DNA from: Panopea generosa
Lineage: Eukaryota > Mollusca > Bivalvia > Adapedonta > Hiatellidae
Reading direction: 5' to 3'
Assembly (NCBI GenBank): GCA_029582155.1
Contig: CM055899.1
Span: 83,732,056 to 83,796,055, forward strand
Length of the DNA stretch: 64,000 bases
The translations under genes were made by a program, and so were the position numbers. Positions 5,900 to 64,000 of the stretch are shown here, piece by piece; position 1 is the stretch's first letter, and each line of letters begins with the position of its first letter. The notes under the pieces are model-generated. The model was not told the origin of the DNA. It made no database searches and was given only the letters and a program-made list of their open reading frames with translations.

Positions 5900-7262
<1,363 letters not shown>

Positions 7263-7470
7263 ACCTCAATTATCACCTCAAATGAAATTTGCCATGAAAT
7301 GATAAGCACTAGTTTTTTCAGTGAAGAAATAAAATTAATAACTTTAAATAGTCAATTAAAACAGCATATCAGTATATAAAATAAGCAAAATGTGGGTAAA
7401 TAGTCGTTATGACAAGCACAGTAAGACATATTCTAAGCACATAAAGTCATATATTATATGACTGGTACAT

Positions 7471-9870: not shown

Positions 9871-10429
9871 GTAATGTTTACATTAAATCTTGTGACAGTA
9901 TAAAAATGCACATACAGGTCCTTTCTTTATGAATATAAGTCAAACGTATCTCAAGCAGCCAGTCAAGGGAAGGAGCGAACGTGGCCTTTAAACACAGGTT
10001 GTTGTTTAATGTTTGCTCTGAAAGTATATAGATGGAAAATAACAAATATGACTGCTCAAGACAAGTGGCTGCTTAATAGAGGTGGTCGCTTATATAGGAT
10101 TGACTGTACTTTCTAAAACTACAAAGAACCTCTCATGACTATATGTAAGAGAGGGAATCCCGGGATTTACCATAGTACACATTAATACTGGAATAGTCAA
10201 ACGAGGGACAATCGGCCATTTTAAAACTATACCTGCAAATTCGTAGATAACGTGTTATTCAATAGCTACACACTACACGAATCATGTGAGATATAGTATA
10301 AAAACTAAACTTACATCTATTTGAAATAAGGTCAGTCATATACACTGGTTGTTTAGTGTTATCATTATGATGGAAACGTTGCCGTACTTAGAGGTTATAT
10401 TAAGACGCGTGGTGTTACTAGACTCTATT
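9871..10429. other. Nothing recognised
   Basis: Unique AT-rich sequence between the candidate exon and the repeat cluster; I see no motif or repeat. Confidence 0.5.
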
Positions 10430-26500: not shown

Positions 26501-29419
26501 GCAGACTTTCTAAACTATTTCACTATTATCCGAAGCATACCAAAAAAATGGAAACAGATTATTAAAACAGAGAATATACCAGAAATTGAAAAAACACCTT
26601 TATTACATCAAGTGAGAAAATGCAACTCTCCAACTAAAATGTTATATAACATGCAAATTAAATTAATTAATATTGATAATGAAATAAAACCTCATCTTCA
26701 ATGGGAAGAAATATTCAACAACCTCAACTGGAAAACTATTCATTGTTTACCTTTCAAAATTACAATAGACACAAAACTAAGATCATTTCAATACAAATAC
26801 ATTATGAGAATTTTACCTACTAACCAGTTTTTATCTAAATGTAAATTAGTTAATTCAAGTCTATGTGATTTTTGTGATAGACATCCTGAAACTATGAAAC
26901 ATTTGTTTTGGGAGTGTCATTTTGTAAGAATTTTTTGGACAGAAGTCCATAATTTTTGTATTGCAAACAATCAATCTTTTAACATCTGTTATCAAAACAT
27001 ATCGTTTGGGTTATATAACTCATCAAAACTTAACTTACTAAACTGTATAATTTTACTTGCTAAATATTTTATTTTTAAAAATAAATACACGAAAACAATT
27101 CCCAGTATTGCAGCATTCAAACATTACTTACAAAAAACAAAGCAAATAGAAAGACTTATTGCAATAAACAAAAACAAACTCGGGTCACATGAAATTAAAT
27201 GGGGAAATATGTAAGTGAAAATACGAAAAATATAATGCATACAGTTTCTCATAAATTCTATTTCTTATCTTTTTCTCCACTCTTGATACTTTTTCTAAAC
27301 CTTCTTTGCCGCTATAACTCTTTACACTTATACATAAAAATGTTACTTGTAAGACATTGTATTAATGTTCTCTTATATACAATGACCATGTAATATGTTA
27401 GTTTCAAAATTATAGTGTTTGTATTGATACCTGAATATTTTTGTATAACATTGTATTATGTCTTACATGGAATAAAATATATTTATCACAAAAAAAAAAA
27501 AATCTTTATTTATAGATAAAATTCGTTAAAATGTGGGTTATTGTGTGTCAATGAATTGTTTTTTTATTTTTTTATTTCACAACAGGCAATATATTTTCTT
27601 TTCTCTTGTCGCTTTCATTTTTGTATACCGTGCACTACTTTTGGCCTTAAGTACATTTTTATTCTATCTTAATATATGAAAGTTTTGAGGTAAAATAAAA
27701 CTATAGAAGAGGAATAAACACAGACATGATAAGTGTTAACAGACATATGTTTATACTTGAATGTTTAAGTTATTTTTGAGTCAGTTACCAAGGATGAAAA
27801 GTCTTCATTTTTTTTGTAAAATAATCAAATTGATAGTTTTTCAAAGCTATTACTTTTTCAATTCCAATTTGATATTTAACGTAGACTTGAAAATTGCCAA
27901 TTACAATGTTAAATATTTCAAATATCGTTTGAATAGATACACATGGCACATTAAAAATCATTTAGGTTAGGTATCAAGTGATGTATTTTAAAATCACCGG
28001 AAATTACGAAAAATAAAACTGTTAGTTAATTTATTCATTTTCAGGCGAAGAAGTCGATGACGATAGTAGTAATGTTGGGAAGACTGATACACCGGCTTCA
28101 ACGAGAACGTGACATGAGCGTTTTGTACCTCAGTGACCTCGGGCCAGGTACCAAGACGTTCTTACTGGCCGAATATACTGCCACCGATGATGCCCTGCAG
28201 AGATTGTCAGTGTGGCCGGGTATGTAAAATAACATCTTGTTTTGTAATATACAACGTAAAGGGAGATAACTGTTACGTTTATTATGTTTCACGTCTTCCA
28301 GAATAGTGTGTCACGTTACTGTATGTTATACGAATTTGTAGATACGTGGTTTGAAGGCCGTTTGTTAAACATAGCAGTTGAATCAGTGCTATGTCCTTCT
28401 ATGACAATTATATTAAGTTCAAACTACTCAGCCAACGGATATTAATAATAAATTGATTTAACTGGTTTGTTTCAATAATTAATTCTAGCGTAAAGTAAAA
28501 GAGAAATGATTGTTAGTCTCTATTTTTTTGATGATTTATAGGGATATCTCAGTGAAATAAAAAAGATATTTGTGTATATAAACATGCACAGAACACAATC
28601 ATATAACGCAGTTAAAATGTGTTAACAATTTTAATTGTGTATCAAACAGACTTCGAAAGGCCTTGTAGAAATGTTTTGTCTGAAATATTTTTTCTTATAA
28701 AATTAAAAGATTCACTAAACATTAGAAAGATAAATGCTTTATTAAATGATGAAATAAGACTTAGTGTAAGAAAAAAAATATGCCTATAATAACATATACT
28801 AAATAAATCATTTAAGTTTTTAAACTTATTTACAATGGAGTCGTTACTAATGTATATGCATGCTGCGATGTACCAAGACAATAAAAACAAAACAAAATAC
28901 AAAGTATCTTATCACAACTGAAGTCATAACAATTATTCACATCATCAAGCTATCACACTATATATTCTCCCAAACGTGACTGAGCTCAATTGTGCTCCAC
29001 CATAATAGGATCAGCTTCACAAACACAACACTATACGGTGTTTATACTTGTAAGCATATCAACAACTGAAGGTATTCAAGTCAGTAATACCAATATAGTA
29101 AAACACAACACTATACGGTGTTTATAGTTGTTAGCATATCTACAGTTGAAGGTATTCAAGTCAGTAATATCAATATAGTAAAACACAACACTATACGGTG
29201 TTTATACTTGTAAGCATATCGACAGTTGAAGTTCTTCAAGTTATCTTACCGTTCAAAACTATTGATAAAGTTTAATGTTTTGAATACGAAAATTGTATTT
29301 AAGTTTAGTAAAATATATCAATATCTATATTAAATTCTTTTTCTAACTTTTGGCTGATGCTTTTATCAAGAAAAAAGCAACAATTATTTAAATCAATTTT
29401 GTAAAGTCCTTACAAAATT

Positions 29420-35400: not shown

Positions 35401-38400
35401 TGATTTGTTTACAAGTTAGCAGCTCCATTAAAGTCACGATGATATGATTGTTCATTATTGTTCCTGATGTGGGTACTTCATAAACTATGCACTTTAGCCA
35501 GACTGGGCAGATTCGGACAGAGACTCGGAGTTGGAGTCTCTTACGGAGTGGGCACTCTGGTCTGTCGCTTGGCACCTTGATATTTGTTGCTAAGACTTAA
35601 AAGTTCTAAAACGACGTGCTTGTTCTAAGTATTGCCATAGTAGTACATTAACTTTGTGATTCTATTAACACCTACATTTAAGTATGTAGACGTATGTCAC
35701 AAATTCAAGCTTAGCTAGGTAAACCTGCGTTAAAGTATGTTGACGTATGTTGCCGAAACAAGCTTAGTTAGGAAAACCAAACCTTCGTTGTAGTATGAAG
35801 ACGAATGTCGCCAGTTCAAATTTAGCTAGGTTAACATACGTTTAAGTATGTATACGTACGTCACCAGTTTAAGTTTAGCTAAGTAAACCTACTTTTTAGT
35901 ATGTAGACGTACGTCGCCAGCTCAATTTTAGCTAGGTTAACCTACGTTTGAGTGCGTAGACGTACGACGCCAGTTCAAACTTAGTTATGTTAACCTACGT
36001 TTAAATATGTAGAAGTATGTCGCCGAAACAAGCTTAGCTAGGTAAACCTACGTCGAAGTATGTATATGTATGTCGCCAGTTCAAGTTTAGTTAGGTTAAA
36101 CCTACATTAAAGTATGTAGACATACGTCACCAGTTCAAGTTTAGCTATGTTAACCTACGTTTAAGTATGTAGACGTATATCGGCATTTCAAGATTAGCTA
36201 GACAAACCTAACTTTATAAGTATGTAGACGTACGTCGCCAGTTTTAGCTTAGCTAGGCAAACCTACGTTTAAAGATGCAGACGTACCTCGCCAGTTCATG
36301 ATTAGCTAGGCAAAAATTCGTTTAAGTATGTAATCGTACGTCGCCAGTTCATTGTTAGCTAGACAAACCTACGTTCAAAGTCTATAGACGTATGTCGCAA
36401 GTTCAAGCTTAGCTATGTAAACCTACGCTTCAGTATGTAGACGTACGTCGCCGAAACAAGCTACGATAGGTAAACCTACGTTTAAGTATATAGATGAACG
36501 TCGCCAGTTCAAGCTAAGCTAGGTAAACCTACGTTTAAGTATGTAGACGTACGTAACCAATTAATGGTTAGCTAGATAAACCTACGTTTAAGTATGTAGA
36601 CGTATGTCACCAGCTCAAATTTAGTTAGGTAAACCTACGTTTAAGTATGTAGACGTACGTATACGACAACAGCACAAGTCTAACTATTCGGAGGCATTTC
36701 ACCATTCGTCAATTACCTATGAGTGTCACCTTCTCATAATTAAATAGGCAAAATGGCATAAACTTAATTTTATATAATATCACAATTAACTATGTAGAAC
36801 TATGTCGACATCTCACGTTTAATTATGTGGAAATATATCAACATATCATGTTTGACTATGCAGAAATATGTCAACATCTCATGTTTGACTATGCTGAAAT
36901 ATGTCAACATCTCATGTTTAATTCTGTAGATATATGTCAACATCCAACGTTTGACTATGTCGAAATATGTAAATATATCACGTTTAATATGTGTTTAATT
37001 GAAACTCTTTGCTAGGCTTCCCAACGTGGAGTGATTTCGAGTTTTACAATGAAAAGATACAGGACTTCAGATATAACTATAAAACTGCCGTGTTCTATAC
37101 TGATATCGTGGTTCCGCTGCATGAGGAAGAAGTCAAAGAAATCAAATCATCTGGGTTAAATATCACAGCAATCATCAATACATACAGGTAACTGATAGCA
37201 TATCGTTTGTGTTGTATATCACAGCAATCATCAATACATACAGGTAACTGATAGCATATCGTCTGTGTTGTATATCACAGCAATCATCAATACATACAGT
37301 TAACTGATAGCATATCGTCTGTGTTGTATATCACAGCAATAATCAATACATACAGGTAATTGATAGCATATCGTCTGTGTTGTATATCACAGCTATCATC
37401 AACACATATAGGTAATTGATAGCATATCGTCTGTGTTGTATATTACAGCTATCAGCAATACATACAGGTAATTGATAGCATATCGTCTGTGTTGTATATC
37501 ACAGCTATCATCAATACATACAGGTCATTGATAGCATCTCGTCTGTGTTGTATATTACATCTATCATCAATACATACAGGTCATTGATAGCATATCGTCT
37601 GTGTTGTATATTACAGCTATCATCAATACATACAGGTCATTGATAGCATATCGTCTGTGTTGTATATCACAACTATCATCAATACATACAGGTAACTGAT
37701 AGCATCTCGTCTGTGTTGTATATCACAGCAATCATCAATACATACAGGTCATTGATAGCATATCGTCTGTGTTGTATATCACAGCAATCATCAATACATA
37801 CAGGTAACTGATAGCATATCGTCTGTGTTGTATATCACAGCAATCATCAATACATACAGGTAATTGATAGCATATCGTCTGTGTTGTATATCACAGCAAT
37901 CATCAATACATACAGGTAACTGATAGCATATATTCTGTGTTGTATTTCACAGCAATCATCAATACATACAGGTAACTGATAGCATATCGTCTGTGTTGTA
38001 TATCACAGCTATCATCAAAACATACAGGTAATTGATAGCATATCGTCTGTGTTGTATATTACAGCTATCATCAATACATACAGGTAATTGATAGCATATC
38101 GTCTGTGTTGTATATTACAGCTATCATCAATACATACAGGTCATTGATAGCATATCGTCTGTGTTGTATATTACAGCTATCATCAATACATACAGGTCAT
38201 TGATAGCATATCGTCTGTGTTGTATATCACAGCTATCATCAATACATACAGGTAATTGATAGCATATCGTCTATGTTGTATATCACAGCTATCATCAATA
38301 CATACAGGTAATTGATAGTATATCGTCTGTGTTGTATATCACAACTATCATCAATACATACAGGTAATTGAAAGCATATCGTCTGTGTTGTATATCACAA

Positions 38401-41400
38401 CTATCATCAATACATACAGGTAATTGATAGAATATCGTATGTGTTGTATATCACAACTATCATCAATACATACAGGTAATTGATAGCATATCATCTGTGT
38501 TGTATATCACAGCAATCATCAATACATACAGGTAATTGATAGCATATCGTCTGTGTTGTATATCACAACTATCATCAATACATACAGGTAGCTGATAGTA
38601 ATCGTCTGTGTTGTATATTACAGCTATCATCAATACATACAGGTAATTGATAGTAATCGTTTGTGTTGTATATTACAGCTATCATCAATACATACAGGTA
38701 ATTGATAGCATATCGTCTTTGTTGTATATCACAGCTATCATCAATATATACAGGTCATTGATAGCACATCGTCTGTGTTGTATATTACAGCTATCATCAA
38801 TACATACAGGTCATTGATAGCATATCGTCTGTGTTGTATATTACATCTATCATCAATACATACAGGTAATTGATAGCATATCGTCTGTGTTTATATCACA
38901 GCTATCATCAATACATACAGGTCATTAATACAATATCGTCTGTGTTGTATATCACAGCTATCATCAATACATACAGGTCATTGATACCATATCGTCTGTG
39001 TTGTATATCACAGCTATCATCAATACATACAGGTCATTGATAGCATATCGTCTGTGTTGTATATTACAGTTATCATCAATACATTCAGGTCATTGATAGC
39101 ATATCGTCTGTGTTGTATATTACAACTATCATCAATACATACAGGTCATTAATAGCCTATCGTCTGTGTTGTATATCACAGTTATCATCAATACATACAG
39201 GTCATTGATAGCATATCGTCTGTGTTGTATATTACAGCTATCATCAATACATACAGGTCATTGATACCATATCGTCTGTGTTGTATATCACAACTATCAT
39301 CAATACATACAGGTAATTGATAGCCTATCGTCTGTGTTGTATATCACAGTTATCATCAATACATACAGGTCGTTGATAGCCTATCGTCTGTGTTGTATAT
39401 CACAGCTATCATCAATACATACAGGTCATTGATAGCATATCGTCCGTGTTGTATATTACAGCTATCATCAATACATACAGTCATTGATAGAATATCGTCT
39501 GTGTTGTATATTACATCTAGCATCAATACATACAGGTCATTGATAGCATATCGTCTATGTTGTATATCACAACTACCATCAATACATACAGGTCATTGAT
39601 AGCATATCGTCTGTGTTGTATATCGCAGCTATCATGATACATACAGGTCATTGATAGCATATCGTCTGTGTTGTTTATCGCAGCTATCATCAATACATAC
39701 AGGTCATTGATAGCATATCGTCTGTGTTGTATATTACAGTTATCATCAATACATACAGGTCATTGATAGCATATCGTCTGTGTTGTATAACACAACTATC
39801 ATCAATACATATAGGTTATTGATAGCCTATCGTCTGTGTTGTATATCACAGCTATCATCAATACATACAGGTCATTGAGAGCATCTCGTCTGTGTTGTAT
39901 ATTACATCTATCATCAATATATACAGGTCATTGATAGCATATCGTATATGTTGTATATTACAGCTATCATCAATACATACAGGTCATTGATAGCATATCG
40001 TCTGTGTTGTATATTACATCTATCATGATACATACAGGTAATTGATAGCATATCGTCTGTGTTGTATATCACAGCTGTCATCAATATATACAGGTCATTC
40101 GTAGCCTTTCGTCTGTGTTGTATATTACAGTTATCATCAATACATACAGGTCATTGATAGCCTATAGTCTGTGTTCTATATCACAGCTATCATCAATACA
40201 TACAGGTCATTGATAGCATATCGTCCGTGTTGTATATTACAGCTATCATCAATACATACAGGTCATTGATAGCATATCGTCTGTGTTGTATATCAAAGCT
40301 ATCATGATACATACAGGTCATTGATAGCATATCGTCTGTGTTGTATATTACAGCTATCATGATACATACAGGTCATTGATAGCATCTCGTCTGCGTTGTA
40401 TATCAAAGCTATCATCAATATATACAGGTCATTGGTAGCCTATCGTCTGTGTTGTATATTACAGGTATCATCAATACATATAGGTCATTGGTAGCCTATC
40501 GTCTGTGTTGTATATTACAGTTATCATCAATACATACAGGTCATTGATAGCATATCGTCTGTGCTGTATATTACAGCTATCATCAATACATACAGGTCAT
40601 TGATAGCATATCGTCTGTGTTGTATATTACAGCTATCATCAATACATACAGGTAATTGATAGCATATCGTCTGTGTTGTATATCACAGTTATCATCAATA
40701 CATACAGGTCATTGATAGCATATCGTCTGTGTTGTATATTACAGCTATCATCAATACATACAGGTCATTGATAGCATCTCGTCTGTGTTGTATATCACAA
40801 CTACCATCAATACATACAGGTCATTGATAGCATATCATCTGTGTTATATATTACAGCTATCATCAATACATACAGGTCATTGATAGCATATTGTCTGTGT
40901 TGTATATTACAGCTATCATGATACATACAGGTCATTGATAGCATATTGTTTGTGTTGTATATTACAGCTATCATCAATACATACAGGTCATTGACAGCAT
41001 ATCGTCTGTGTTGTATATCACAGCTATCATCAATACATACAGGTCATAGATAACATATCGTCTGTGTTGTATATTACAGCTATCATCAATACATACACGT
41101 CATTGACAGCATATCGTGTGTGTTGTATATTACAGCTATCATCGATACATACAGGTCATAGATAGCATATCGTCTGTGTTGTATATTACAGCTATCATCA
41201 ATATATACAGGTCATTGGTAGCCTTGCGTCTGTGTTGTATATTACAGCTATCATCAATACATAGAGATCATTGATAGCATATCGTCTGTGTTGTATATTA
41301 CAGCTATCATGATACATACAAGTCATTGATAGCATATTGTTTGTGTTGTATATTACAGCTATCACTAAAACATACAGGTAACTGATAGCATATCGTCCGT

Positions 41401-44400
41401 ATTAAAGCTATCATCAATACATACACGTCATTGATAGCATATCGTCTGTGTTGTATATTACAACTATCATCAATACATACAGGTCATTGATAGCATATCG
41501 TCTGTGTTGTTTATCGCAGCTATCATCAATACATACAGGTCTTTGATAGCATATCGTCTGTGTTGTATATTACAGCTATCATCAATACATAAAGGTCATT
41601 GATAGCATCTCGTCTGTGTTGTATATCACAACTACCATCAATACATACAGGTCATTGATAGCATATCATCTGTGTTTTATATTACAGCTATCATCAATAC
41701 ATACAGGTCATTGATATCATATTGTCTGTGTTGTATATTACAGCTATCATGATACATACAGGTCATCGATAGCATATTGTTTGTGTTGTATATTACAGCT
41801 ATCATCAATACATACAGGTCATTGACAGCATATCGTCTGTGTTGTATATCACAGTTATCATCAATACATACAGGTCATAGATAGCATATCGTCTGTGTTG
41901 TATATTACAGCTATCATCAATACATACAGGTCATTGACAGCATATCGTGTGTGTTGTATATTACAGCTATCATCGATACATACAGGTCATAGATAGCATA
42001 TCGTCTGTGTTGTATATTACAGCTATCATCAATATATACAGGTCATTGGTAGCCTAGCGTCTGTGTTGTATATTACAGCTATCATCAATACATAGAGATC
42101 ATTGATAGCATATCGTCTGTGTTGTATATTACAGCTATCATGATACATACAAGTCATTGATAGCATATTGTTTGTGTTGAATATTACAGCTATCACTAAA
42201 ACATACAGGTAACTGATAGCATATCGTCCGTATTAAAGCTATCATCAATACATACAGGTCATTGATAGCATATCGTCTGTGTTGTATATTACAACTATCA
42301 TCAATACATACAGGTCATTGATAGCATATCGTCTGTGTTGTATATTACATCTATCATCAATACATACAGGTCATTGATAACATATCGTCTGTGTTGTATA
42401 TTACAGCTATCATCAATATATACAGGTCATTGATAGCATATCGTCTGTGTTGTATAATACATCTATCATCAATACATACAGGTCATTGATAGCATATCGT
42501 CTGTGTTGTATATCACAACTATCATCAATACATACAGGTCATTGATAGCCTATCGTCTGTGTTGTATATTACAGTTATAATCAATACATACAGGTCGTTG
42601 ATAGCCTATCGTCTGTGTTGTATATCACAGCTATCATCAATACATACAGTCATTGAGAGAATATCGTCTGTGTTGTATATTACATCTATCATCAATACAT
42701 ACAGGTCATTGATAGCATATCGTCTGTGTTGTATATCACAGCTATCATCAGTACATACAGGTCATTGATAGCATATCGTCTGTGTTGTATATCACAACTA
42801 TCATCAATACATACAGGTCATTGATAGCCTATCGTCTGTGTTGTATATTACAGTTATCATCAATACATACAGGTCATTGATAGCATATCGTCTGTGTTGT
42901 ATATCACAGCTATCATCAATACAAACAGGTCATTGATAGCATATCGTCCGTGTTGTATATTACAGCTATCATCAATATATACAGGTCATTGATAACATCT
43001 CGTCTGTGTTGTATATTACATCTATCATCAATATATACAGGACATTGATAGCATATCGTCTGTGTTGTATATTACAGCTATCATCAATACATACAGGTCA
43101 TTGATAGCATATCGTCTGTGTTGTATATTACAGCTATCATGATACATACAGGTCATTGATAGCATATCGTCTGTGTTGTATATCACAGCTATCATCAATA
43201 TATACAGGTCTTTGGTAGCCTTTCGTCTGTGTTGTATATTACAGTTATCATCAATACATACAGGTCATTGATAGCCTATCGTCTGTGTTGTATATCACAG
43301 CTATCATCAATACATACAGGTCATTGATAGCATATCGTCCGTGTTGTATATTACAGCTTTCATCAATACATACAGGTCATTGATAGCATATCGTCTGTGA
43401 TGTATATCACAGCTATCATGATACATACAGGTCATTGATACATTGATAGCAGATCATCTGTGTTATATATTACAGCTATCATCAATACATACAGGTCATT
43501 GATAGCATATCATCTGTGTTGTATATTACAGCTATCATGATACATACAGGTCATTGATAGCATATCGTATGTGTTGTATATCAAAGCTATCATCAATATA
43601 TACAGGTCATTGGTAGCCTATCGTCTGTGTTGTATATTACAGCTATCATCAATACATATAGGTCATTGGTAGCCTATCGTCTGTGTTGTATATTACAGTT
43701 ATCATCAATACATACAGGTCATTGATAGCATTTCGTCCGTGTTGTATATTACAGCTGTCATCAATACATACAGGGCATTGATAGCATATCGTCTGTGTTG
43801 TATATCACAACTATCGTCAATACATACAGGTAATTGACAGCATATCGTCTGTGTTGTATATCACAGCTATCATCAATACATACAGGTCATTGATAGCATA
43901 TCGTCTGTGTTGTATATCACAGCTATTATCAATACATACAGGTCATTGATAGCATATAGTCTGTGTTGTATATCACAGCTATCATCAATACATACAGGTC
44001 ATTGACAGCATATCGTCTGTGTTGTATATTACAGCTATCATCAATACATACAGGTCATAGATAGCATATCGTCTGTGTTGTATATTACAGCTATCATCAT
44101 TATATACAGGTCATTGATAGCGTATAGACTGTGTTGTATATTACAGATATCATCAATACATAGAGGTCATTGATAGCATATCGTCTGTGTTGTATATTAC
44201 AGCTATCATGATACATACAGGTCATTGATAGCATATTGTTTGTGTTGTATATTACAGCTATCACTAAAACATACAGGTAACTTATAGCATATCGTCCGTA
44301 TTACAGCTATCATCAATACATACATGTCATTGATAGCATATCGTCTGTGTTGTATATTACAGCTATCATGATACATACAAGTCATTGATAGCGTATCGTC

Positions 44401-47400
44401 TGTGTTGTATATCACAGCTATCACCAATATATACTGGTCATTGGTAGCCTATCGTCTGTGTTGTATATTACAGTTAACATCAATACATACAGGTCATTGA
44501 TAGCATATCGTCTGTGTTGTATATCACAGCTATTATCAATACATACAGGTCATTGATAGCATATAGTCTGTGTTGTATATCACAGCTATCATCAATACAT
44601 ACAGGTCATTGACAGCATATCGTCTGTGTTGTATATTACAGCTATCATCAATACATACAGGTCATAGATAGCATATCGTCTGTGTTGTATATTACAGCTA
44701 TCATCATTATATACAGGTCATTGATAGCGTATAGACTGTGTTGTATATTACAGATATCATCAATACATAGAGGTCATTGATAGCATATCGTCTGTGTTGT
44801 ATATTACAGCTATCATGATACATACAGGTCATTGATAGCATATTGTTTGTGTTGTATATTACAGCTATCACTAAAACATACAGGTAACTTATAGCATATC
44901 GTCCGTATTACAGCTATCATCAATACATACATGTCATTGATAGCATATCGTCTGTGTTGTATATTACAGCTATCATGATACATACAAGTCATTGATAGCG
45001 TATCGTCTGTGTTGTATATCACAGCTATCACCAATATATACTGGTCATTGGTAGCCTATCGTCTGTGTTGTATATTACAGTTAACATCAATACATACAGG
45101 TCATTGATAGCCTACCGTCTGTGTTGTATATCACAGCTATCATCAATACATACAGGTCATTGATAGCATATCGTCTGTGTTGTATATTAAAGCTATCAGT
45201 AAAACATACATGTAACTGATAGCATATCGTCTGTGTTGTATATCACAGCTATCATCAATACATACACATAATTGATAGCATATCGTCTGTGTTGTAAATT
45301 ACAGCTATCATCAATACATACACGTCATTGATAGTAATCGTCTTTGTTGTATATCATAACTATCATCAGTACATACAGGTCATTGATAGCATCTCGTCTG
45401 TGTTGTATATTACAGCTAACATCAATACATACAGGTAATTGATAGCATATCGCCTGTGTTGTATATCACAGCTATCATCAATACATACAGGTCATTGATA
45501 GCATCTCGTCTGTTTTGTATATTACAGCTATCATCAATACATACAGGTCATTGATAGCATCTCGTCAGTGTTGTATATTAAAGCTATCATCAATACATAC
45601 AGGTCATTGATAGCATCTCATCTGTGTTGTATATTAATGCTATCATGATACATACAGGTCATTGATTGCATATCGTCTGTGTTGTATATTACAACTATCA
45701 TCAATACATACAGGTCATTGATAGTATATCGTCTGTGTTGTATATCACAGCTATCATGATACATACAGGTAATTGATAGCATATCGTCTGTGTTGTATAT
45801 CACAGCTATCATCAATACATACAGGTCATTGATAGCATATCGTATGTGTTGTATATTACAGCTATCATCAATACATACAGGTCATTGATAGCAAATCGTC
45901 TGTGTTGTATATCACAGCTATCATGATACATACAGGTCATTGATAGCATCTCGTCTGTGTTGTATATTACATCTATCATCAATACTTAGAGATAATTGAT
46001 AGCATATCGTCTGTGTTGTATATCACAGCTATCATCAATACATACAGGTCATTGATAGCATCTCGTCTGTGTTGTATATTACAACTATCATCAATACATA
46101 CAGGTCATTGATAGCATATCGTCTGTGTTGTTTATTACAGCTATCATCAATACAAACAGGTCATTGATAGCATCTCGTCTGTGCTGTATATTACAGCTAT
46201 CATGATACATACAGGTCATTGATAGCATATCGTCTGTGTTGTATATCACAACTATCATCAATACAAACAGGTCATTGATAGCATATCGTCTGTGTTGTAT
46301 ATCACAGCTATCATCAATACATACAGGTCATTGATAGCATATCGTCTGTGTTTTATATTACAACTATCATCAATACATACAGGTCATTGATAGCATATCG
46401 TCTGTGTTGTATATCACAGCTATCATCGATACATACAGGTCATTGATAGCATATCGTATGTGTTGTATATTACAGCTATCATCAATACATACAGGTCATT
46501 GATAGCATCTCGTCTGTGTTGTATATTACAGCTATCATCCATACATACAGGTCATTGATAGCATATCGTCTGTGTTGTATATCACAGCTATCATGATACA
46601 TACAGGTCATTGATAGCATATCGTCTGTGTTGTATATCACAGCTATCATCAATACATACAGGTAATTGATAGCATATCGTCTGTTTTGTATATCACAGCT
46701 ATCATCAATACATACAGGTCATTGATAGCATATCATCTGTGTTGTATATTACAACTATCATCAATACATACAGGTAATTGATAGCATATCGTCTGTGTTG
46801 TATATCACAGCTATCATCAATACATACAGGTCATTGATAGCATATCGTCTGTGTTGTATATTACAGCTATCATCAATACATACAGGTCATTGATAGCATA
46901 TCGTCTGTGTTGTATATTACAGCTATCATGATACATACAGGTCATTGATAGCATATCGTCTATGTTGTATATCACAGCTATCATCAATACATACAGGTCA
47001 TTGATAGCATCTCGTCTGTGTTGTATAATACATCTATCATCAATACATACAGGTCATTGATAGCATATCGTCTGTGTTGTATATTACAACTATCATCAAT
47101 ACATACAGGTTATTGATAGCATATCGTCTGTGTTGTATCATACATCTATCATCAATACATACAGATCAATGATAGCATATCGTCTGTGTTGTATATTACA
47201 GCTATCATGATACATACAGGTCATTGATAGCATATCGTCTGTGTTGTATAATACATCTATCATCAATACATACAGGTCATTGATAGCATATCTTCTGTGT
47301 TGTATATCACATCTATCATGATACATACAGGTAATTGATAGCATATCATCTGTGTTGTATATTACAGCTATCATCAATACATACATGTCATTGATAGCAT

Positions 47401-50400
47401 ATCGTCTGTGTTGTATATCACAGCTATCATGATACATACAGGTAATTGATAGCATATCGTCTGTGTTGTATATCACAGCTATCATGATATATACAGGTAA
47501 TTGATAGCATATCGTCTGTGTTGTATATCACAGCTATCATGATACATACAGGTCATTGATAGCATATCGTCTGTGTTGTATAATACATCTATCATCAATA
47601 CATACAGGTCATTGATAGCATATCGTCTGTGTTGTATAACACATCTATCATCAATACATACAGGTCATTGATAGCATATCGTCTGTGTTGTATATTACAG
47701 CTATCATGATACATACAGGTCATTGATAGCATCTCGTCTGTGTTGTATAATACAGCTATCATCAATATATACAGATCATTGATAGCATATCGTCTGTGTT
47801 GTATATTACAGCTATCATGATACATACAGGTCATTGATAGCATATCGTCTGTGTTGTATATCACAACTATCATCAAAACATACAGGTCATTGATAGCATC
47901 TCGTCTGTGTTGTATAATACATCTATCATCAATACATACAGGTCATTGATAGCATATCGTCTGTGTTGTATAATACATCTATCATCAATACATACAGGTC
48001 ATTGATAGCATATCGTCTGTGTTGTATAATACAGCTATCATCATACATACAGGTCATTGATAGCATATTGTCTGTGTTGTATATTACAGCTATCAGGATA
48101 CATACAGGTCATTGATAGCATATCGTCTGTGTTGTATAATACATCTATCATCAATACATACAGGTCATTGATAGCATATCGTCTGTGTTGTATATCACAG
48201 CTATCATGATACATACAGGTCATTGATAGCATCTCGTCCGTGTTGTATATTACAGCTATCATGATACATACAAGTCATTGATAGCATATCGTCTGTGTTG
48301 TATAATACATCTATCATGATACATACAGGTAATTGATAGCATATCGTCTGTGTTGTATATCACAGCTATCATGATACATACAGGTAATTGATAGCATATC
48401 ATCTGTGTTGTATATTACAGCTATCATCAATACATACATGTCATTGATAGCATATCGTCTGTGTTGTATATCACAGCTATCATGATACATACAAGTAATT
48501 GATAGCATATCGTCTGTGTTGTATGTCACAGCTATCATGATACATACAGGTAATTGATAGAATATCGTCTGTGTTGTATATCACAGCTATCATGATACAT
48601 ACAGGTCATTGATAGCATATCGTCTGTGTTGTATAATACATCTATCATCAATACATACAGGTCATTGATAGCATATCGTCTGTGTTGTATAATACATCTA
48701 TCATCAATACATAAAGGTCATTGATAGCATATCGTCTGTGTTGTATATTACAGCTATCATGATACATACAGGTCATTGATAGCATCTCGTCTGTGTTGTA
48801 TAATACAGCTATCATCAATATATACAGATCATTGATAGCATATCGTCTGTGTTGTATATTACAGCTATCATGATACATACAGGTCATTGATAGCATATCG
48901 TCTATGTTGTATATCACAGCTATCATCAATACATACAGGTCATTGATAGCATCTCGTCTGTGTTGTATAATACATCTATCATCAATACATACAGGTCATT
49001 GATAGCATATCGTCTGTGTTGTATAATACATCTATCATCAATACATACAGGTCATTGATAGCATATCGTCTGTGTTGTATAATACAGCTATCATAATACA
49101 TACAGGTCATTGATAGCATATCGTCCGTGTTGTATATTACAGCGATCATGATACATACAGGTCATTGATAGCATATCGTCTGTGTTGTATAATACATCTA
49201 TCATCAATACATACAAGTCATTGATAGCATATCGTCTGTGTTGTATATCACAGCTATCATGATACATACAGGTCATTGATAGCATCTCGTCCGTGTTGTA
49301 TATTACAGCTATCATGATACATACAAGTCATTGATAGCATATCGTCTTTGTTGTATAATACAGCTATCATGATACATACAGGTAATTGATAGCATATCGT
49401 CTGTGTTGTGTATTACAGCTATCATGATACATACAGGTCATTGATAGCATATCGTCTGTGTTGTATATTACAGCTATCATCAATACATACAGGTCATTGA
49501 TAGCATATCGTCTGTGTTGTATATTACAGCTATCATCAACACATACAGGTCATTGATAGCATATCGTCTGTGTTGTATATTAAAGCTATCATCAATACAT
49601 ACAGGTCATTGATAGCATATCGTCTGTGTTGTATATTAAAGCTATCATCAATACATACAGGTCATTGATAGCATATTGTCTGTGTTGTATATTACAACTA
49701 TCATCAATACATACAGGTCATTGATAGCATATCGTCTGTGGTGTATATTACATCTATCATCAATACATACAGGTCATTGATAGCATATCGTCTGTGTTGT
49801 ATATTACAGCTATCATCAATACATACAGGTAATTGTTAGCATATCGTCTGTGTTGTATATCACAACTATCATCAATACATACAGGTCATTGATAGCATAT
49901 CGTCTTTGTTGTATATAACAGCTATCATGATACATACAGGTCATTGATAGCATATCGTCTGTGTTGTATATCACAGCTATCATCAATGCATACAGGTCAT
50001 TGATAGCATATCGTCTGTGTTGTATATTACAGCTATCATCAATATATCCAGGTCATTGATAGCATATCGTATGTGTTGTATATCACAGCTATCATGATAC
50101 ATACAGGTAATTGATAGCATATCGTCTGTGTTGTATATCACAGTTATCATCAATACATACAGGTAATTGACAGCATATCGTCTGTGTTGTATATTACAGC
50201 TATCATCAATACATACAGATTATTGATAGCATATCGTCTGTGTTGTATATCGCAGCTATCATCAAAACATACAGGTAATTGATAGCATATCGTCTGTGTT
50301 GTATATTACAGCTATTATCAATACATACAGATTATTGATAGCATATCGTCTGTGTTGTATATCACAGCTATCATCAATACATACAGGTCATTGATAGCAT

Positions 50401-53400
50401 ATCGTCTGTGTTGTATATTACAGCTATCATCAATATATACAGGTCATTGATAGTAATCGTCTGTGTTGTATATCACAACTGTCATCAGTATATACAGTTC
50501 ATTGATAGCATATCGTCTGTGTTGTATATCACAGCTATCATGATACATACAGGTCATTGATAGTAATCGTCTGTGTTGTATGTCACAACTGTCATCAATA
50601 CATACAGGTCATTGATAGCATATCGTCTGTGTTGTATATTACAACTATCATCAATACATACAGGTAATTGATAGCATATCGTCCGTGTTGTATATCACAG
50701 CTATCATCAATACATATAGGTCATTGATCGCAAATCGTCTGTGTTGTATGTCACAACTATCATCAATACATACAAGTCATTAATAGCATATCGTCTGTGT
50801 TATATATTACAGCTATCATCAATACAAACAGGTCATTGATAGCATATCGTCTGTGTTGCTTATCACAACTATCATCAATACATACAGATCATTGATAGCA
50901 TCTCGTCTGTGTTGTATATCACATCTATCATCAATACATATAGGTCATTGATAGCATCTCGTCTGTGTTGTATATTACAGCTATCATCAATACATACAGG
51001 TCATTGATAGCATATCATCTGTGTTGTATATCACAACTATCATCAATACATACAGGTCATTGATAGCATATCGTCTGTGTTGTATATCACAGCTATCATC
51101 AATGCATACTGGTCATTGATAGCATATCGTCTGTGTTGTATATCACAGCTATCATCAATACATACAGGTCATTGATAGCATCTCGTCTGTGTTGTATATT
51201 ACAGCTATCATCAATACATACAGGTCATTGATAGCATCTCGTCTGTGTTGTATATTACAGCTATCATCAATACATACAGGTCATTGATAGCATCTCGTCT
51301 GTGTTGTATATTACATCTATCATCAATACATACAGGTCATTGATAGCATATCGTCTGTGTTGTATATTACAGCTATCATCAATGCATACAGGTCATTGAT
51401 AGCATATCGTCTGTGTTGTATATCACAACTATCATCAATACATACAGGTCATTGATAGCATCTCGTCTGTGTTGTATATTACAGCTATCATCAATACAAA
51501 CAGGTCATTGATAGCATCTCGTCTGTGTTGTATATTACATCTATCATCAATACATACAGGTCATTGATAGCATATCGTCTGTGTTGTATATTACAGCTAT
51601 CATCAATACATACAGGTAATTGATAGCATATCGTCTGTGTTGTATATTACATCTATCATCAATACATACAGGTCATTGATAGCCTATCGTCTGCGTTGTA
51701 TATTACAGTTATCATCAATACATACAGGTCATTGATAGCATCTCGTCTGTGTTGTATATCACAGCTATCATCAATACATACAGGTCATTGATAGCATATC
51801 GTCTGTGTTATATATCACAGCTAGCATCATTATATACAAGTCATTGATAGCATATCGTCTGTGTTGTATATTACAGCTATCATCAATACATACAGGTCAT
51901 TGATAGCATATCGTATGTGTTGTATATCACAGCTATCATCAATTTATACAGGTCATTGATAGCATATCGTCTGTGTTGTATATCACAGCTATCATCAATA
52001 TATACAGGTCATTGATAGCATATCGTCTGTGTTGTATATCGCAGCTATCATCAATACATACAGATTATTGATAGCATATCATCTGTTTTGTATATCGCAG
52101 CTATCATCAATACATACAGGTCATTGGTAGCCTATCGTATATGTTGTATATTGTAACTATCATCAATACATACAGGTCATTGATAGCATATCGTATGTGT
52201 TGTATATTGCAATTATCATCAATGCATACAGGTAATTGATAGCATATCGTCTGTGTTGTATAGTACAGCTATCATGATACATACGGTTAAACTTGCTAGC
52301 ATATCGTCTGTGTTATATATCACAGCTATTAAAAAATCATACATGCCAACATTATCGCCGCTATCACGAATACATACAGGTAAAAATGATAACATATCGT
52401 CTATATTGGATATCATAGCTGTAACGAATACATACAGGTAAAATGTTAACATATCGTCTCTATTGGATATCACAGCTATCACGAATACATACAAGTGAAA
52501 TAATAACATATCGTCTATGTTGGATATCACATTTATCATAAATACATACAGATAAAAATGATAGCATATCGTCTTTGTTGGATATCCAGCTATTACAAAT
52601 ATATAATATATGTGTTCAAACACGAACGTTGAGGTATGAAATCATATTTTATGTGCAAAGTCAATACAACCGGTCCTCTTCTGGTTTGTTATATTCGACT
52701 ATGTTCTGCGCTTCCAAAGGGAACTTTTATCAGATACTATTGTAAAAAATATGTTCCTTTTTATGTTCGTGGAACATTAAATTCCACTAGATTGCACAAA
52801 ATGTAAAACAGTTTCCATAATCATTATATCTGATAACGAATAATGCAATATGTTGGTTTCTTTACAAACTGTTGTAAAACTGTTTTTGAAGAATGTTCCT
52901 CTAAAAACATGCTGTTAATAGTGTTCATTACTCGGCCGTCTTGTCTGCATTAATATACCGTATTAATTTGCTCAATTGTGTACGTTTTATATATATATCA
53001 GGCAAGAAATTCAATACCACGACCCATTGATGAACTACACATCAAATGAGAAAGCAAAGTGGTTCTTTGACAACATGACAGAGTACCTTGATTCCCTGTT
53101 AGGTATACAGGAAAAGGTGGCACATAAGATAATAGAGGACGTAGATGCCGTTTTATCATCTGTTGTTTTCAAGGTAATAGATAACAATATACATTAAAAC
53201 TGGACTTGTATTGACACATACCTTATATTTATCTATAATTAAATTTGAATCTAAAGGCATAATACACATGTTAAAATGAACCTGAACAGAAGTTTAAGAC
53301 GGTGTATTACATAACGACATTCTGGTGTCCTTCTCATTGTCATCGAGTAAGACCGATATGTTTGTTTATCTAGAGACCAGGTATTTTGTAAGCAGTGTGA

Positions 53401-55387
53401 TGTGAATATTGTTGAAGATGAAATACATTTCGTATTTTGTGGAGCTACATTTGCCAATTTCAATGAAAATTTAGAAGCAAAAACGAATTAAGTGATACAA
53501 ATCAATGGTATGTAAGTAAAATTACTAAATTATTTCAAAATAATTGTGAACTATTATCTTTCAGAAAGTTAATAGAACGTGCTTTAAAACAAAGCAAATT
53601 TAAACAATCACACACTTTGTTTTTGATGTTAAGTTATGTCATGTAATTTTATTTATGCATTTATGCGTTGAAGTAATTGCAATTTGATTAGAAATTGTAT
53701 AACTGAGTATTTCTTAACATTAATTAAAGCTTTAGTTAATGTTGACAATTAAACATGCACTATACCTATCACTCTAACAAATATATATATATATATATAT
53801 ATACATACGAGTATATATATATCTAGAATATATTTTTTGACACCAATACGAAATAGGAAAAAAGAAATTGAAGGAGGTACATATTGTCCAACTAAAATGT
53901 ATTTGATGGACATACTTACATTAAATCAATATCTAACTCTAGGTTGAATTCCTTTTAATATTCTCCCTATATATATAAATAATATCCATCTATTACAGGT
54001 GGTCGTATATGCTGTGTTGGTGGTTGTAGTTATAGGCATGTGTCCTATAATCATGTTTTCATCTGAAGCACTTGCAAGTGATACGCAGCGATACACACAA
54101 ACGCTCGTGCAAAGAACGACGGAGTTAAACTTAGAAAAACATAAGGCTGATACTCTTTTATTCCAGGTATGGTTATTGTTTAGTTTAACCTTCAACCTAT
54201 GGCGTCATAGTTACGTCATTTTCTAGGGCAAATAACCACGTGGAGCATGACCTGTTGGTAGAGCATCAGATCCAAAATCGGAGATGGGGCAGTCTTAATC
54301 GCCACCGAAAGGATCATAAGCGACAGTGACTACATTTTATTCCTCAAAATTCACAGTTTTTTTATATATATTTTAAGTATGCAACTAATCAAACAATGAA
54401 CTACATTTATATTTAAGACACTGTTTAATACCATTTTCAAAAATATTGCATAATTTATATGAAACGTCACAATACCATGGATCAAATAAGAGAGTCGTAA
54501 GGATATATATCATAGCGCGGGGGTCAGTGCTCAAGGTTATTTGAAAACACATGGTATTATCATAGTTAAGTAAAAAACGATGAATGCATTAAATTAATTT
54601 TGTCTTTTCTCACAAATTCTCACATTTGTTCTACAGATGGTACCAAAATCGATAGCCAAGAAGATGAAGGATCGGAACTCCTATTCTGAATCAGATTACT
54701 TTAAAAGTGTAACAGTTATGTTTGCGGATATTTTCGGATTTCAACAACTTTTGACGGAGTTGACGCCAACAGAATTAGTAGCGTTTCTAAATAGTTTACA
54801 CAGCGCTGTGGATGAACGCATAGAGAGCTATGAAGTTTACAAAGTTGAAACTATAAATGACTGCTACATGGTTGCGTCTGGTGAGTTATTAGAGTTAAAA
54901 AGAATAAAAATATTGTCCCAAAAAATGTTTATAAACTTGATGCGTCTCCATTACTATACCATCAACTTTTACATCTTCTCTTTCTTTTTTTCTCTACCTT
55001 ATTATTTCTTTCTTCTTATTATTATTATAAGTAACATTATTATTTTTTTCTTTCATTATTATTATTAATATTATTCAGACCGCGGCGTGGTCTAGTGGTA
55101 GATCGTCCGCCTCGCATGCGGAAGGTCGTGGGTTCAATCCCCGGCCGGGTCATACCAAAGCCTTTAAAAATGGTACTAAAAGCTTCCTTGAGTTCTAGGT
55201 CTGGTCGACCCGATGTCAGTATAATGTGACTGGGTGGGGTATCATACCATGTGTCTGCGGCATGATACTCCAGTGTGACAGCGCTTAGAATAATGTCTCA
55301 AGTAGACACCGTCACGATATGAATGAAAAATTGAAAGCGATGCTTAACACCATACAACAACAACAACATTATTATTATTATCATTAA

Positions 55388-55463
<76 letters not shown>

Positions 55464-57256
55464 ATCATTTTAATGTTAGTACTTATATTAGCATAATCAT
55501 TTATATTGGTATTTGTTATTATTATTATTATTATCATCATTATCATTATAATTAAACTTTATTATTATAATTATTATAATCATTATTTTTATATTCATTA
55601 TTTTTATAATCATTTTTATTTGTTATTATCATTATCATTACTATTATTGTGATTATAATTAGCATTATATATATCATATATATAAATATCTGTAAAGTAC
55701 AGTTATTAGAGCAATTGCGATTTTACAGTATCTAAATTCATAATGACTGAAGTGGAAAATATCTCTGAATGTAAAACCGTCTGTATTCATTGCACTTTAA
55801 ACTTTTTTCCACTGCAACATGCGTTTATATATTCAAAAAAAAAATATATATATATATATATGGAGATAATAATTTGTGAATAACCAAGACATAAATGTAC
55901 AGACCAGACTACGGTGAGTGCACCTAGCTACAATGCAAACCATAGATACAATATCAAGGACTCTGCCAAACCAATAAATTTGGTGTCGACCATGACTTAT
56001 ATACTATGGAATTACATGCAACACATCTGGACAGGGTGGACAAATTTACATACATGAAGTGATAGCTTTTTATGAGTAGGATCCAGTTAAGGTTCATTAC
56101 TACTCACATGCTATATAAAGGACAGATTTATAAACCCGTTGGATCATATAGATACAGTGAATTCATATATATTTAATTTCATAAAGGGAGATAATTAAAT
56201 TCACAACAACGGAATATATATATGTTAACATACCAAACTAATATATTGATTAAGACTTCCCTAGCTTGGACTACGCTTTTAGAGTAGGCTAAAATAGGTT
56301 TCCCGCTTAAAATGGCAACATATTTATGATGTATTAAATGAACAGAATTGCACGTAGTACAAATTTTTCATGTTAGAAAGAGCCGGAATAACGATGCGAA
56401 GGTCGTCAAACAGTATTTAAGTGCTGTCTATTTTTAAAATGAGCATTTCGTTTCAAGTTTTCCACTCAAATTTCGTCACGTTTCAGGTGTTCCGAATAGG
56501 AACGGTTTAATGCACGTGGCCGAGATAGCCACACTGTCCTTGGACCTGCTACACGTAATAAACAGCACGCAGTTTCCCATAAACCCGTCACGACATGTTA
56601 ACATCAGAATAGGCATCCACACAGGTAAGCACCAGTTTGTCGTTTGAAGGATCGACGTATTCAAACCTCCAATCTGTACCCATTCATGTATAGTTAGTTT
56701 TAAATGAAGAACACATGCAGATAGTTTTAAATACTTTTAATAATAGTCTTATGTCTTGTAAAACCTTATTAAAATGTATGTAGTTGGTACGACAATAACA
56801 ATAAAAGTATACGGTATATGTAATTCTGATATTACTCGGAAGTTACATCAAAATATCTTCGTAACAATGTATAGCAATCATTTATAAAGAATACGAAGGA
56901 ACTTTAGGGTATGTAGGGTGTTTTTGATGATATACTTTTTATATGCCAATATTGATATTTAGCGAACCTTTCCATACAAGAAATTCAATCAAATTCAATA
57001 AGAAGTTCCATTTTGTTTAAATTTTAACCGATTGCCCATGATAAATCATCTGTAGATTACTATGAATTAACGACCATTTATTGAAACATTATCTGTAGTA
57101 TGTAGAACACGAAGTAGCATTATCAAATGTATCTTTATATCATCATGTTCAGGACCTTGCATGACGGGAATAGTTGGAAAGGTCATGTTGAAATATTGTC
57201 TTTTTGGCGACACGGTGTACGTTGCCAGACGAATGAAGTTATCGGGCTTACGTAAG

Positions 57257-57325
<69 letters not shown>

Positions 57326-60300
57326 TTAAGCGGCGTTTTCATGCCATCTTCGGCTAACAGACGATCATTTAACCTAAATATTGTTTCCCGGGATCCCAAA
57401 ATGTTAACCAGTACTCAAGCACACCTCATCTCTGCAAGTACCTGATAACTTTCTCATTTGAATCGGAGATGAGAGACGAATGATAATGAGACACAATGCC
57501 GTATATCGTTCATCACGGAGACTGTAGTCGAGCTGGAATTCGAACACACGAGCCCTTGATTGATAATCAGACGCTCTACCGACTGAGCTAATTGGCCTGA
57601 CAGTTTAGGAACAGTACAAAAACAATGATCCTCTTAAATGGGAATTATGAGGTCATTGTTTTATAAGTTGTAGACAAAATCTACTAAATCGCACGTGGTT
57701 GACGTAGATGGTCTACACTCAAGATCACACAGTCAACATAAAAGGACTCGAACTGAAAATTCGCCACATTTTTATCAACAGTTACGTTGCTTCCAACATC
57801 CAGGGCTCACTGTGGACTATTTCAAAAGCCGTTTTTCTTTGGTAAAATATTACGTAATGTATAAATGTGCGCTCTTGATATTTTGGGCATTTTCGTGATA
57901 ATTAATACTATAGAACACACTAAACTAATTAAACATTAGTTTAATTATAATGTTTACTGTCACAATCACATTCTCCTTGGTTCATTTCCTACTATTTAAA
58001 TGAACACTTAGAGTCACTGCCAACTATATTATCGAAGGTCACAGTTTTTTTTGTTGAATTTATTTTTACCTTCGTTAAGTTTTATTACTCCGTTTAAAAA
58101 TATAAAGTGTTCTGGATGAGATTTAAGACCGCGGCGGTGGTCTATAGAGCGTCCGCCACGCATGCGTTAGGTCGAGGGTTCAATCTCCAGTCGGGTCATG
58201 TCAAACACTTGAAAAATGGTTGTTAGTTTAAAAAATATTTTATTCACAAAAGTACATATATTTAGCATTCATTTAACAATAAAGTCAAACGTTTAACGAA
58301 TTATGTGGAAAGGATACAGAAAAAAACTTTAGAAGCTTGTGTTAATCTGCTTCCATAACAGTTATTATACATTTCTTATAAACTTTATCATATTGTTCCG
58401 AAATAATATCAATTTGGCCAAATGTGCAAAAATTTATTAAAGAAATAATGGTTTATTCAGAGTATTTCAAAAAATAAAAAAGAGAGTATTAGTTAAAGAG
58501 AAGGAAAGAAAGAAAGAAAGAGACTCCACTGATTTTCTTTTCTTTATCGGTTAATTCCGATATAGGGGATAAATATTTTGCAAGTATGTTTATCAATCAA
58601 ATCCATTTATAAACAATTGTTTCTTACTATCCAAGATCAAATAGAGGCGTGTTGTTATAATTAAGTAAGTAAAAAACATGACAAATCATTATCTATTTAA
58701 CTGTGTGTGATACTCAAAACGTTTGGTCTTTATAATATAATTTTGAACTGTCATGAAAATCGAGTTGTTGTTAGTTAGTGTAAGATTTTCATTACCATAC
58801 AGAATATCATTCAAGGAAGGATCATGTGGATAAGCTAATTTTATTTCAGGCATCATTCTTTGTCTATATTGGTAAAATAGTCTGCACCTGAATAAATAAT
58901 GATATGTGTCCCCAATTTCACCACAAAGACAATTTGGACTTGCAACTATGTTTTTATTGAATAAATGTTGATTTAAGTTACTGCAATTTGTTCGAAGTCG
59001 TGTATGATATAATTGGACAATTCGGTTTCCTGTATAATAGTGATTTGGAACCTTTTGTTTATTTGCGTTTATATTTGATTTGAATATATTAAGGGAAGGC
59101 GACTCTCTTATGAGGTGAGGAAGATTATTCCATTCACGCACAGAAGAAGGTATGAATGAATTAAAATATAATTGAGTATTACATGAAAATGTTTCTTCAC
59201 TTGGCGATCAGCATTTAGAGGGTAGTTCTAGATCTGTCGGCCCAGTTCTGGGTTGGGTATCATACTATGTGTCTACGACATGATAATCCCGTGTGGCAGC
59301 GCTCATTATAACCGACACCGACACCGTCGCAATATTACAGAAAAATTGAAATCGACGCTAAAGCCCATACAACTACAACCGGATCAAAATTATAAAATAT
59401 TATATACAAGTTTTATCTCGATCGGTCCAGGCATTTTCGAGAAAATATAAATGAGGTAAATGCATATATTTGCCAACAGACATATTTTTACATTTAGGTT
59501 TGTTTTCAGTTTGTTATTCATTCATATTCACTTAAATATACGTCTATGGAGATTCATTGATTGACCTGAGACACAGACAAAGCATATTTCCACTTCTTTT
59601 CTTACCTATAATCATTTTTGTATTTTATCTAAAATTATCTTAGTTTAGCATGCCGTTCTTTGCAATATATATTGCAGGGCTAAAATGTAGGACCCCAAAT
59701 ATGAAAGTGGTCACACATGTTAAATGATTTCAGCACATATGTTAAAACGTTCCGCATATGTGACACTTACTTTTTGTAAAAAAATAACGATAGTCATACA
59801 TGTATTTGTCATAAAAAGATATCACCGATTTTTCATTCTAGATATATGAAACCGAATATTGGTTGAAGGTGGTTGTTGTACATTAAGTATGTTAAAATGC
59901 CTAATCAACTAGAACATAAGCAGAAGTGTTTCGTTTTTATTTTCTTTCTCACTTTTCTCAAAAGAAAGTATAGTCTAGTTTATTATATTGAACTATTTTT
60001 GACACCATGTAGTAGTTCGTGGTTAGCAAACGGTGACATATGTATATTAATCTATGAGATTCAGTGTTTAGGTTTGTATGTAAACACATTCCTACAAGGT
60101 TGTCAGTTCTGGTTGTTTATAAATATGGTTTGCTGATACAAAAATGAATTTTATTAATTTCAGCAAACAAAATCCATGTTAGTGACAAGATGGTTACTCT
60201 TCTGAAGAAGTGTGGAAAGTTTAAGATGAAGTGCAGAGGTACTGTTGACATTAAGGTAACACATAAACATACCAACACAAGAAAAATTATTTGTTCACAA

Positions 60301-63328: not shown

Positions 63329-63694
63329 GTGATTGTCTTAGTAATGATTTTTTTTTATATGGGGATGTTTACTTTATGAAACAGGTGTTCAATACATGAT
63401 GTCTCTCGGCCAGAATTAAAGAATAAACGATTTTCGTTAAGCCAAGCTTAGTAAATAGCTAAAGAGATATCCCTAACGAATGTATTTAATTTAATCAAAA
63501 ACTATAGGAAAGTTAGTGTAGAGAGATGCTGGTGTATTTTATTCAAATAATAAGACTTAATTAATTCTGGATAAGAACAGTAATGATTGATTGCGTGATT
63601 ATTTTGTTTTAAGTGGGAATCAGTCCCGAGAGTCACTCTCTATATCTTGGTTATTACATATGTTCCGCTGTTTTTTACCCATTTTGTATTGGAC

Positions 63695-64000
63695 AAGTGA
63701 TGTAGAGGTTTGGTCCCTATTTCTTTTGCATAATGAGATGTAGAGCTTTGACCCTTTTTCTGGATACATGATGTAAAAGATTGATCCCTCGTTAAATCCT
63801 AAATAAAATATTGAAAGTATAGTTTAGTAAAAAAATATATTTTGTTCACAAGACACATGTATGTTATACTTAATGGAATCCAAGAGCAGATGCCATTGCT
63901 TAGACAAAGTGTTATTAAGTTTTAAATGTAGAGTATTAACCCCTATATACTTTATTTGAATGTAGAGTTTTGGCCCCTATAATTGGGTTGAATGTAAAGT
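63695..64000 (+). repeat. Degenerate 35-37 bp repeat running off the window end
   Basis: GATGTAGAGGTTTGGTCCCT-like units recur near 63701, 63740, 63769, 63927, 63960 and 63991, with about 130 bases of other sequence in the middle. Confidence 0.65.

Follow-up and report, generated by a model that had tools for sequence, protein, structure and literature searches.

A giant minisatellite of the 'mirage' type at a 5' splice site in a bivalve receptor gene, with a proposed origin from the exon end

A gene of the bivalve Panopea generosa that we identify from its domains and relatives as a NIT-domain receptor guanylyl cyclase carries, directly behind exon 4, a 56-bp satellite that fills nearly the whole of the following intron and whose first unit is the exon end with its own splice donor. 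The window is the whole stretch of DNA that was analysed, 64,000 nucleotides of GenBank assembly GCA_029582155.1 (contig CM055899.1, positions 83,732,056 to 83,796,055); coordinates below refer to it, and the gene and the array lie on its + strand. We consider it quite probable that the array is a giant minisatellite at a 5' splice site, of the kind called mirages in amphioxus, which originated and grew by copying of the exon.

Tandem Repeats Finder places the array at 37146-52329, with a period of 56, 272.5 copies and 91% matches. A wraparound alignment spans 37132-52605 and resolves 277 consecutive segments (37160-52581), followed by a partial one that runs to 52605. Segment 1 is the end of exon 4 with its donor. 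The satellite at 37160-52605 therefore has 277 segments, 276 of them near-complete, a count from which we excluded 37132-37159, segment 273 (52317-52352, too gapped for a junction) and the last partial segment. Most of the near-complete segments are 56 bp (208) or 55 bp (57) long. The part behind the exon, 37188-52605, makes up 97.5% of an intron of 15,814 bp (37188-53001). An earlier note on this DNA, made from its letters, had described about 270 head-to-tail copies through nearly the whole intron and had proposed the Tandem Repeats Finder analysis as a check; both programs bear the description out. The distal end, 52353-52605, consists of diverged relic units of 57-58 bp (GTAAAAATGATAAC and similar), the last of them partial.

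The junctions in the array are largely intact. An AG/GT junction (a slash marks the splice point) is present in 235 of the 277 segments, with GT in 259 and AG in 250; the earlier statement that every unit presents a junction thus holds for about 85% of segments and fails for the rest. Exact copies of ACATACAGGT number 199 in the array; the + strand of the window has one more outside it, at 9910. The true 5' splice site, the GT at 37188-37189 (ACATACAG/GTAACT), is recognised from the sequence and from homologous proteins that run through the junction. Its AACT at positions +3 to +6 is found in only 12 of the 277 segments, and CATT in 201.

Exon pieces of one protein were read from + strand open frames between 28 and 57 kb. 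A joined piece of 450 residues matches the Pfam families NIT (E 7.5e-18), HNOBA (E 1.1e-5) and Guanylate_cyc (E 7.2e-28). A protein search with residues 1-330 gave 77 relatives at E up to 0.001, and those with an organism shown are all molluscs except one hemichordate (P0076, Glandiceps). The best relative, P0001 of Ruditapes philippinarum, reaches 87% over the searched part; Mya (78%), a second Ruditapes protein (76%) and Mactra (74%) follow. Judged from these matches, the host gene is a bivalve NIT-domain receptor guanylyl cyclase. Exon 4 (37016-37187), drawn from the sequence and from protein alignments with 22 of the 77 homologs and with all 77, ends by coding ...NITAIINTY, followed by positions 1 and 2 of an Arg codon. 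Exon 5 (53002-53173) follows from the sequence and the protein alignment, and the homologous protein is continuous across the junction of the two exons. A separate observation concerns the cyclase domain (57153-57251), which is without the Asn of the DTVN motif, a residue that we take to be catalytic. The same is true of the two closest relatives, P0001 and P0002 (the motif region reads GPTVYIASRM in Ruditapes and GEAVFVASRM in Mya), and P0003 and P0004 are among those that retain DTVNIASRM. The missing Asn suggests that the protein may be a pseudo-cyclase.

The relatives also bear on which came first, exon or satellite. At the end of exon 4 the Ruditapes relative reads GLNITSIMNTYR/YEIQYHD, and the Arg split by the junction (Arg 209) is Arg in 76 of the 77 relatives, with a gap in the remaining one. 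Because this end is conserved protein sequence, we take the exon end as the source of the array; on the protein alignments, the exon is the older and the satellite is derived. A satellite that came first, and into which the exon was later extended, would find support in the identity of the last 28 exon bases with units 2 and 3. This exonised satellite is so improbable, given the protein conservation of the exon end, that we regard it as ruled out. Elsewhere in the window no further copy of the satellite was found: a profile of unit pairs run over 1-37100 and 52561-64000 on both strands recovered only the distal end of the array (E 1.6e-5; next E 0.48). Other exons of the gene did not show up as sources of other repeats: when eight exons were compared with the window in a short-word search (E up to 1, 37132-52605 masked), nothing longer than 12-18 bases matched apart from the exons themselves. 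Plasmid sequences, searched with the exon and its first units, contained no match, which is what one expects of animal DNA. The founding from the exon end that the earlier note proposed therefore stands, and we return below to its single event.

How much of the unit comes from the exon can be judged half by half. Exact identity with the exon extends over 28 bases (37160-37187), one more than previously noted, and this stretch agrees at 28/28 positions with the matching half of unit 2. The array consensus differs from this half of the exon at two places (ATC/ATT and GCA/GCT), both synonymous. With regard to codon-position bias, the column table holds other unit variants that are non-synonymous, and two synonymous cases prove nothing. 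The other half of the unit had been taken for the next intron bases. Compared with exon bases 37132-37159, one period upstream, the consensus intron half matches at 19/28 positions, ungapped and in register, and the intron half of unit 1 itself at 17/28. Among 96,850 other 28-mers of the window, on both strands, none reaches 19, one reaches 18 and 12 reach at least 17. None of 1126 28-mers from other exon stretches of the gene reaches 19 (best 15), and neither does any of 20,000 dinucleotide shuffles of either sequence. In the remaining 55 registers the intron half and the exon share at most 12 matches. The best ungapped match (+1/-1) in exon 4 (37016-37159), in any register, lies exactly at 37132-37157 and continues the register.

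Since the intron half matches the upstream exon at 19/28 in register, the whole unit is most likely exonic. Its putative source is the last 56 bases of exon 4, 37132-37187, which start with GT (in the Val codon GTC) and end with AG, and we consider it likely from the half-by-half identities that the whole unit is a copy of them. The earlier description of the unit would then be right for the exon end, and its intron half would probably be a diverged exon copy. Alternatively, the duplication may have spanned the boundary, so that the unit consists of 28 exon bases and 28 original intron bases and the likeness to the upstream exon is due to chance. Arguing for this case, units 1 and 2 agree at 55/56 bases over both halves, and under a strict local score (+2/-3, with gaps) the upstream exon does not align significantly with the unit, since 149 of 1000 mononucleotide shuffles attain the same score. 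Counter to this, 19/28 in the register that the period predicts is equalled at no window position and in no shuffle, and the best match in any register sits exactly at the predicted place. We therefore hold a boundary-spanning duplication to be unlikely.

Several further points weigh against an entirely exonic unit. The any-register score is modest, being equalled by 10 of 1000 dinucleotide shuffles and by 5 of 331 real windows. The strong figures for 19/28 come from a fixed register that was tested only after the aligner had extended there, and the case for an exonic intron half is based on 28 bases. The level of unit 1, 17/28 compared with 19/28 for the consensus, is attained at 12 of the 96,850 window positions. 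The two halves of the consensus have also diverged unequally from the exon (26/28 in the exon half, 19/28 in the intron half), and an extra assumption, re-seeding by unit 1, is consequently needed. Finally, the distal relics have A at +3 and the exon has C, which leaves the ancestral base there unsettled.

If the unit is indeed a copy of the exon end, the founding event would have duplicated the last 56 coding bases of exon 4 in tandem, right at the exon/intron boundary. Because the 56-mer starts with GT and ends with AG, extra copies would remain inside the intron at low cost: each copy behind the exon would have the shape of an intron (GT...AG), re-create the exon end and supply another GT. 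Unequal exchange and block duplication would then have raised the number of units to about 277. Unit 1, the exon end itself, would take part in this process and continue to seed exon-like copies into the near end, with selection on the protein holding the exon itself unchanged.

The array records such a polarity. According to the unit list, the exon-proximal units 1-25 (37160-38559) are the sole carriers of the exon GCA allele (10 units) and of the exact exon 28-mer (8 units). The 28-mer is confined to units 1, 2, 3, 11, 12, 13, 14 and 25. The GCA allele is confined to units 1-4, 11-15 and 25 (clustering P about 6e-11), and donors with A at +3 are found in 21 of the first 28 units compared with 32 of the 249 others (P about 9e-12), both cuts having been chosen after the lists were seen. 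Identity of the exon half to the exon is 0.952 in units 2-25, 0.89-0.90 in units 26-270 and 0.791 in the last seven, one of which is heavily gapped. Identity to the array consensus is 0.931-0.962 over the 13 bins that cover units 1-260 and 0.847 in the last bin (261-278), which includes segments 273 and 278, both heavily gapped. What sets the near end apart is thus its exon alleles and not a reduced consensus identity. Exact repeats of at least 120 bp form 11 pairs, five of them at an offset of 1053. They include a 634-bp match at an offset of 607 (43871-45111), which either arose recently as a block duplication within the array or was introduced by the assembly; the match is compatible with mirage-type length variation between haplotypes, of which one is represented here. 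These patterns suggest a near end that is refreshed from the exon, a centre that expands by block duplication and an old far end. Near-end clustering of exon-identical copies and later large block duplications mean that the single founding event of the earlier note tells only part of the history.

Splicing probably still joins the first donor to the acceptor that ends at 53001, as this donor adjoins the signals of the exon itself and carries A at +3, a base missing from most decoys. In a duplex program, with what we take to be the end letters of U1, the true donor pairs with U1 at -8.0 kcal/mol; a perfect match gives -14.0 and the 277 donors average -5.3. The commonest decoy, CAGGTCATTGA, found in 156 segments, pairs at -5.6 kcal/mol. 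Counting the true donor, 48 of the 277 donors pair with U1 as well as it does. Read-through past exon 4 gives R and then directly TAA, from which a truncated receptor is predicted. Choice of a decoy donor would mostly leave a retained block that is itself GT...AG and that could go in a second splicing step; otherwise translation would meet the stop after the Arg.

The note had also suggested that the array acts as a splice-factor sink or a control of splicing rate, and a selected function as U1 sink, splicing-rate timer or controlled source of truncated receptor can be set against these results. It could draw on the 235 intact AG/GT sites, on the immediate TAA upon read-through and on the only moderate U1 pairing of the true donor relative to a perfect match. 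Counter to this, 229 of the 277 donors pair with U1 more weakly than the true one, and conservation of the AGGT columns is nothing out of the ordinary, a point against a sink: their mean conservation of 0.961 is over the mean of all columns (0.943) and under the median (0.964), and 24 of the 56 four-column stretches, AGGT counted, are as conserved or better. We accordingly rejected selection retaining the junctions as an explanation. A selected function is in our opinion very unlikely, and the array probably has no dedicated one.

Decoy or stepwise splicing at the array may take place. In 236 of 276 cases two neighbouring units together make a GT...AG module; a branch-like yTnAy motif stands at +5 to +9 in 248 of 277 segments. 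On these two features one could build a self-healing ladder, in which the long intron is removed stepwise via many dual-specific AG/GT sites. We think this improbable. If true, a wrong donor choice would leave a block that can itself be spliced out, the exon could harmlessly feed an unlimited satellite into its own intron, and exon/intron boundaries would be birthplaces of satellites.

The GT...AG form of the unit raises the further question of whether the intron itself was born from the repeat. Introns gained when coding sequence is duplicated in tandem have been documented, the duplicated exonic stretch supplying a GT donor (PMC4974935, PMC2891723), and repeats located at human exon-intron boundaries are a potential cause of new introns (PMC2812944). 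In this reading, a coding GT...AG 56-mer would have been duplicated in a continuous exon, the GT and AG of the duplication would have served as splice sites, and the array would have grown later. The donor from an exonic stretch is common to both situations, but the acceptor beside exon 5 is no copy of the unit: over its final 56 bases the intron matches the unit at 18/56. The satellite-free remainder of the intron (52606-53001), with the true 3' splice site ATATATATCAG/ at its end, is no more unit-like than shuffles (165/1000; 215/300). Derivation of both splice sites from the unit is therefore unsupported on the acceptor side, and a later change of acceptor would be required. We find intron birth doubtful.

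By the features tested here, the array belongs to the mirage kind, for which Canestro 2002 is cited as a reference in amphioxus. Its unit includes the boundary of the host exon and intron (the exon end and its donor make up unit 1, behind which come 276 further segments), many but not all units carry AG/GT, and a homogenised centre leaves out the ends, as seen in the low consensus identity of the last bin and the exon alleles at the near end. In amphioxus, tandem repeats of exon/intron boundaries are described as mirages in Adh3 (units of 10-72 bp) and in the globins BflGb6 and BflGb9 (150-160 bp); many units have AG/GT, the clusters vary in length, and their ends lie outside homogenisation (PMC3087553). 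TnC has been added to the mirages and PGBD5 likened to them (PMC3902484), and the mirages are reported without disturbance of regular splicing (PMC3087553, PMC3902484). Unlike these cephalochordate arrays, the present one is in a mollusc, its unit appears wholly exonic and of GT...AG form, and its exon alleles are polarised to the near end. It is also far larger: the two BflGb6 haplotypes have 6 and 3 repeat units, compared with about 277 over 15.4 kb here.

A second known likeness is the minisatellite of human IFI6, a 12-mer in about 26 copies, which Turri in 1995 is said to have described as giving multiple splice donors. In IFI6 (6-16, G1P3), two downstream repeat units serve as donors in mRNA (PMC4526556), and its multiple-donor minisatellite is also cited elsewhere (PMC2572611). 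Both arrays are repeats located at an exon/intron junction and contain donor sites; the downstream donors of IFI6 are used in mRNA, and those of the present array are candidates. The tandem dual-specific splice sites of polyubiquitin UBC (PMC10809524) resemble ours in having AGGT in a tandem array, each site a potential donor or acceptor. However, in UBC the repeats code for ubiquitin monomers, and intron length is a whole number of units (PMC10809524). Here the 56-bp unit is not a multiple of 3, the acceptor beside exon 5 is outside the array, and the intron ends in non-array sequence instead of at the same site as it begins. The ratchet points of recursive splicing offer a likeness in sequence only, juxtaposed AG/GT in a long intron.

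Although the earlier note knew of no described family, the mirages of amphioxus and IFI6 were thus already known, and the array is an exceptionally large example of this rare kind of repeat. What is new with respect to this kind is the size, the phylum, the intron-shaped unit and the polarity. In a limited literature search, the excerpts of the matches listed included no molluscan mirage, no exon-derived satellite and no bivalve satellite with splice sites. The array extends mirage minisatellites from amphioxus to a mollusc and to the 15-kb scale. Satellite origins are often hard to trace; this satellite has a nameable source, a conserved coding exon end, and alleles that record its direction of growth. 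The 235 intact AG/GT sites behind one exon constitute a natural test of first-donor choice by the spliceosome, and also of whether GT...AG shaped duplications are tolerated because splicing can remove them.

Other repeats occur in and around the gene. The intron before exon 4 has minisatellites at 35670-36660 (53 bp) and 36789-36992 (33 bp), which by eye have a TATGTAGA..TAYGTC core in common and are seemingly related; in the short-word search neither matched the eight exons. In the region 57252-57322, an ATTG microsatellite of 16 copies (57258-57322) stands a few bases from the probable exon 9 donor, TTAC/GTAAGTATTGATTG..., and is another repeat hard against a 5' splice site. Inside the gene span there is a tRNA-Ala (CGC) call at 55080-55151, whose nearby sequence resembles, by eye, a tRNA-derived short interspersed element (SINE). 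A LINE-like element at 23494-27214 has reverse transcriptase (PF00078) and zf-RVT (PF13966) matches in several open frames. It is preceded by a transposase remnant (22876-23145) with a weak DDE_3 match of 26.3 bits, under the curated cut-off of 28.6. Distant from the gene, at 6195-7266, a CTGT microsatellite (27.5 copies) lies beside a 34-bp minisatellite of 28 copies.

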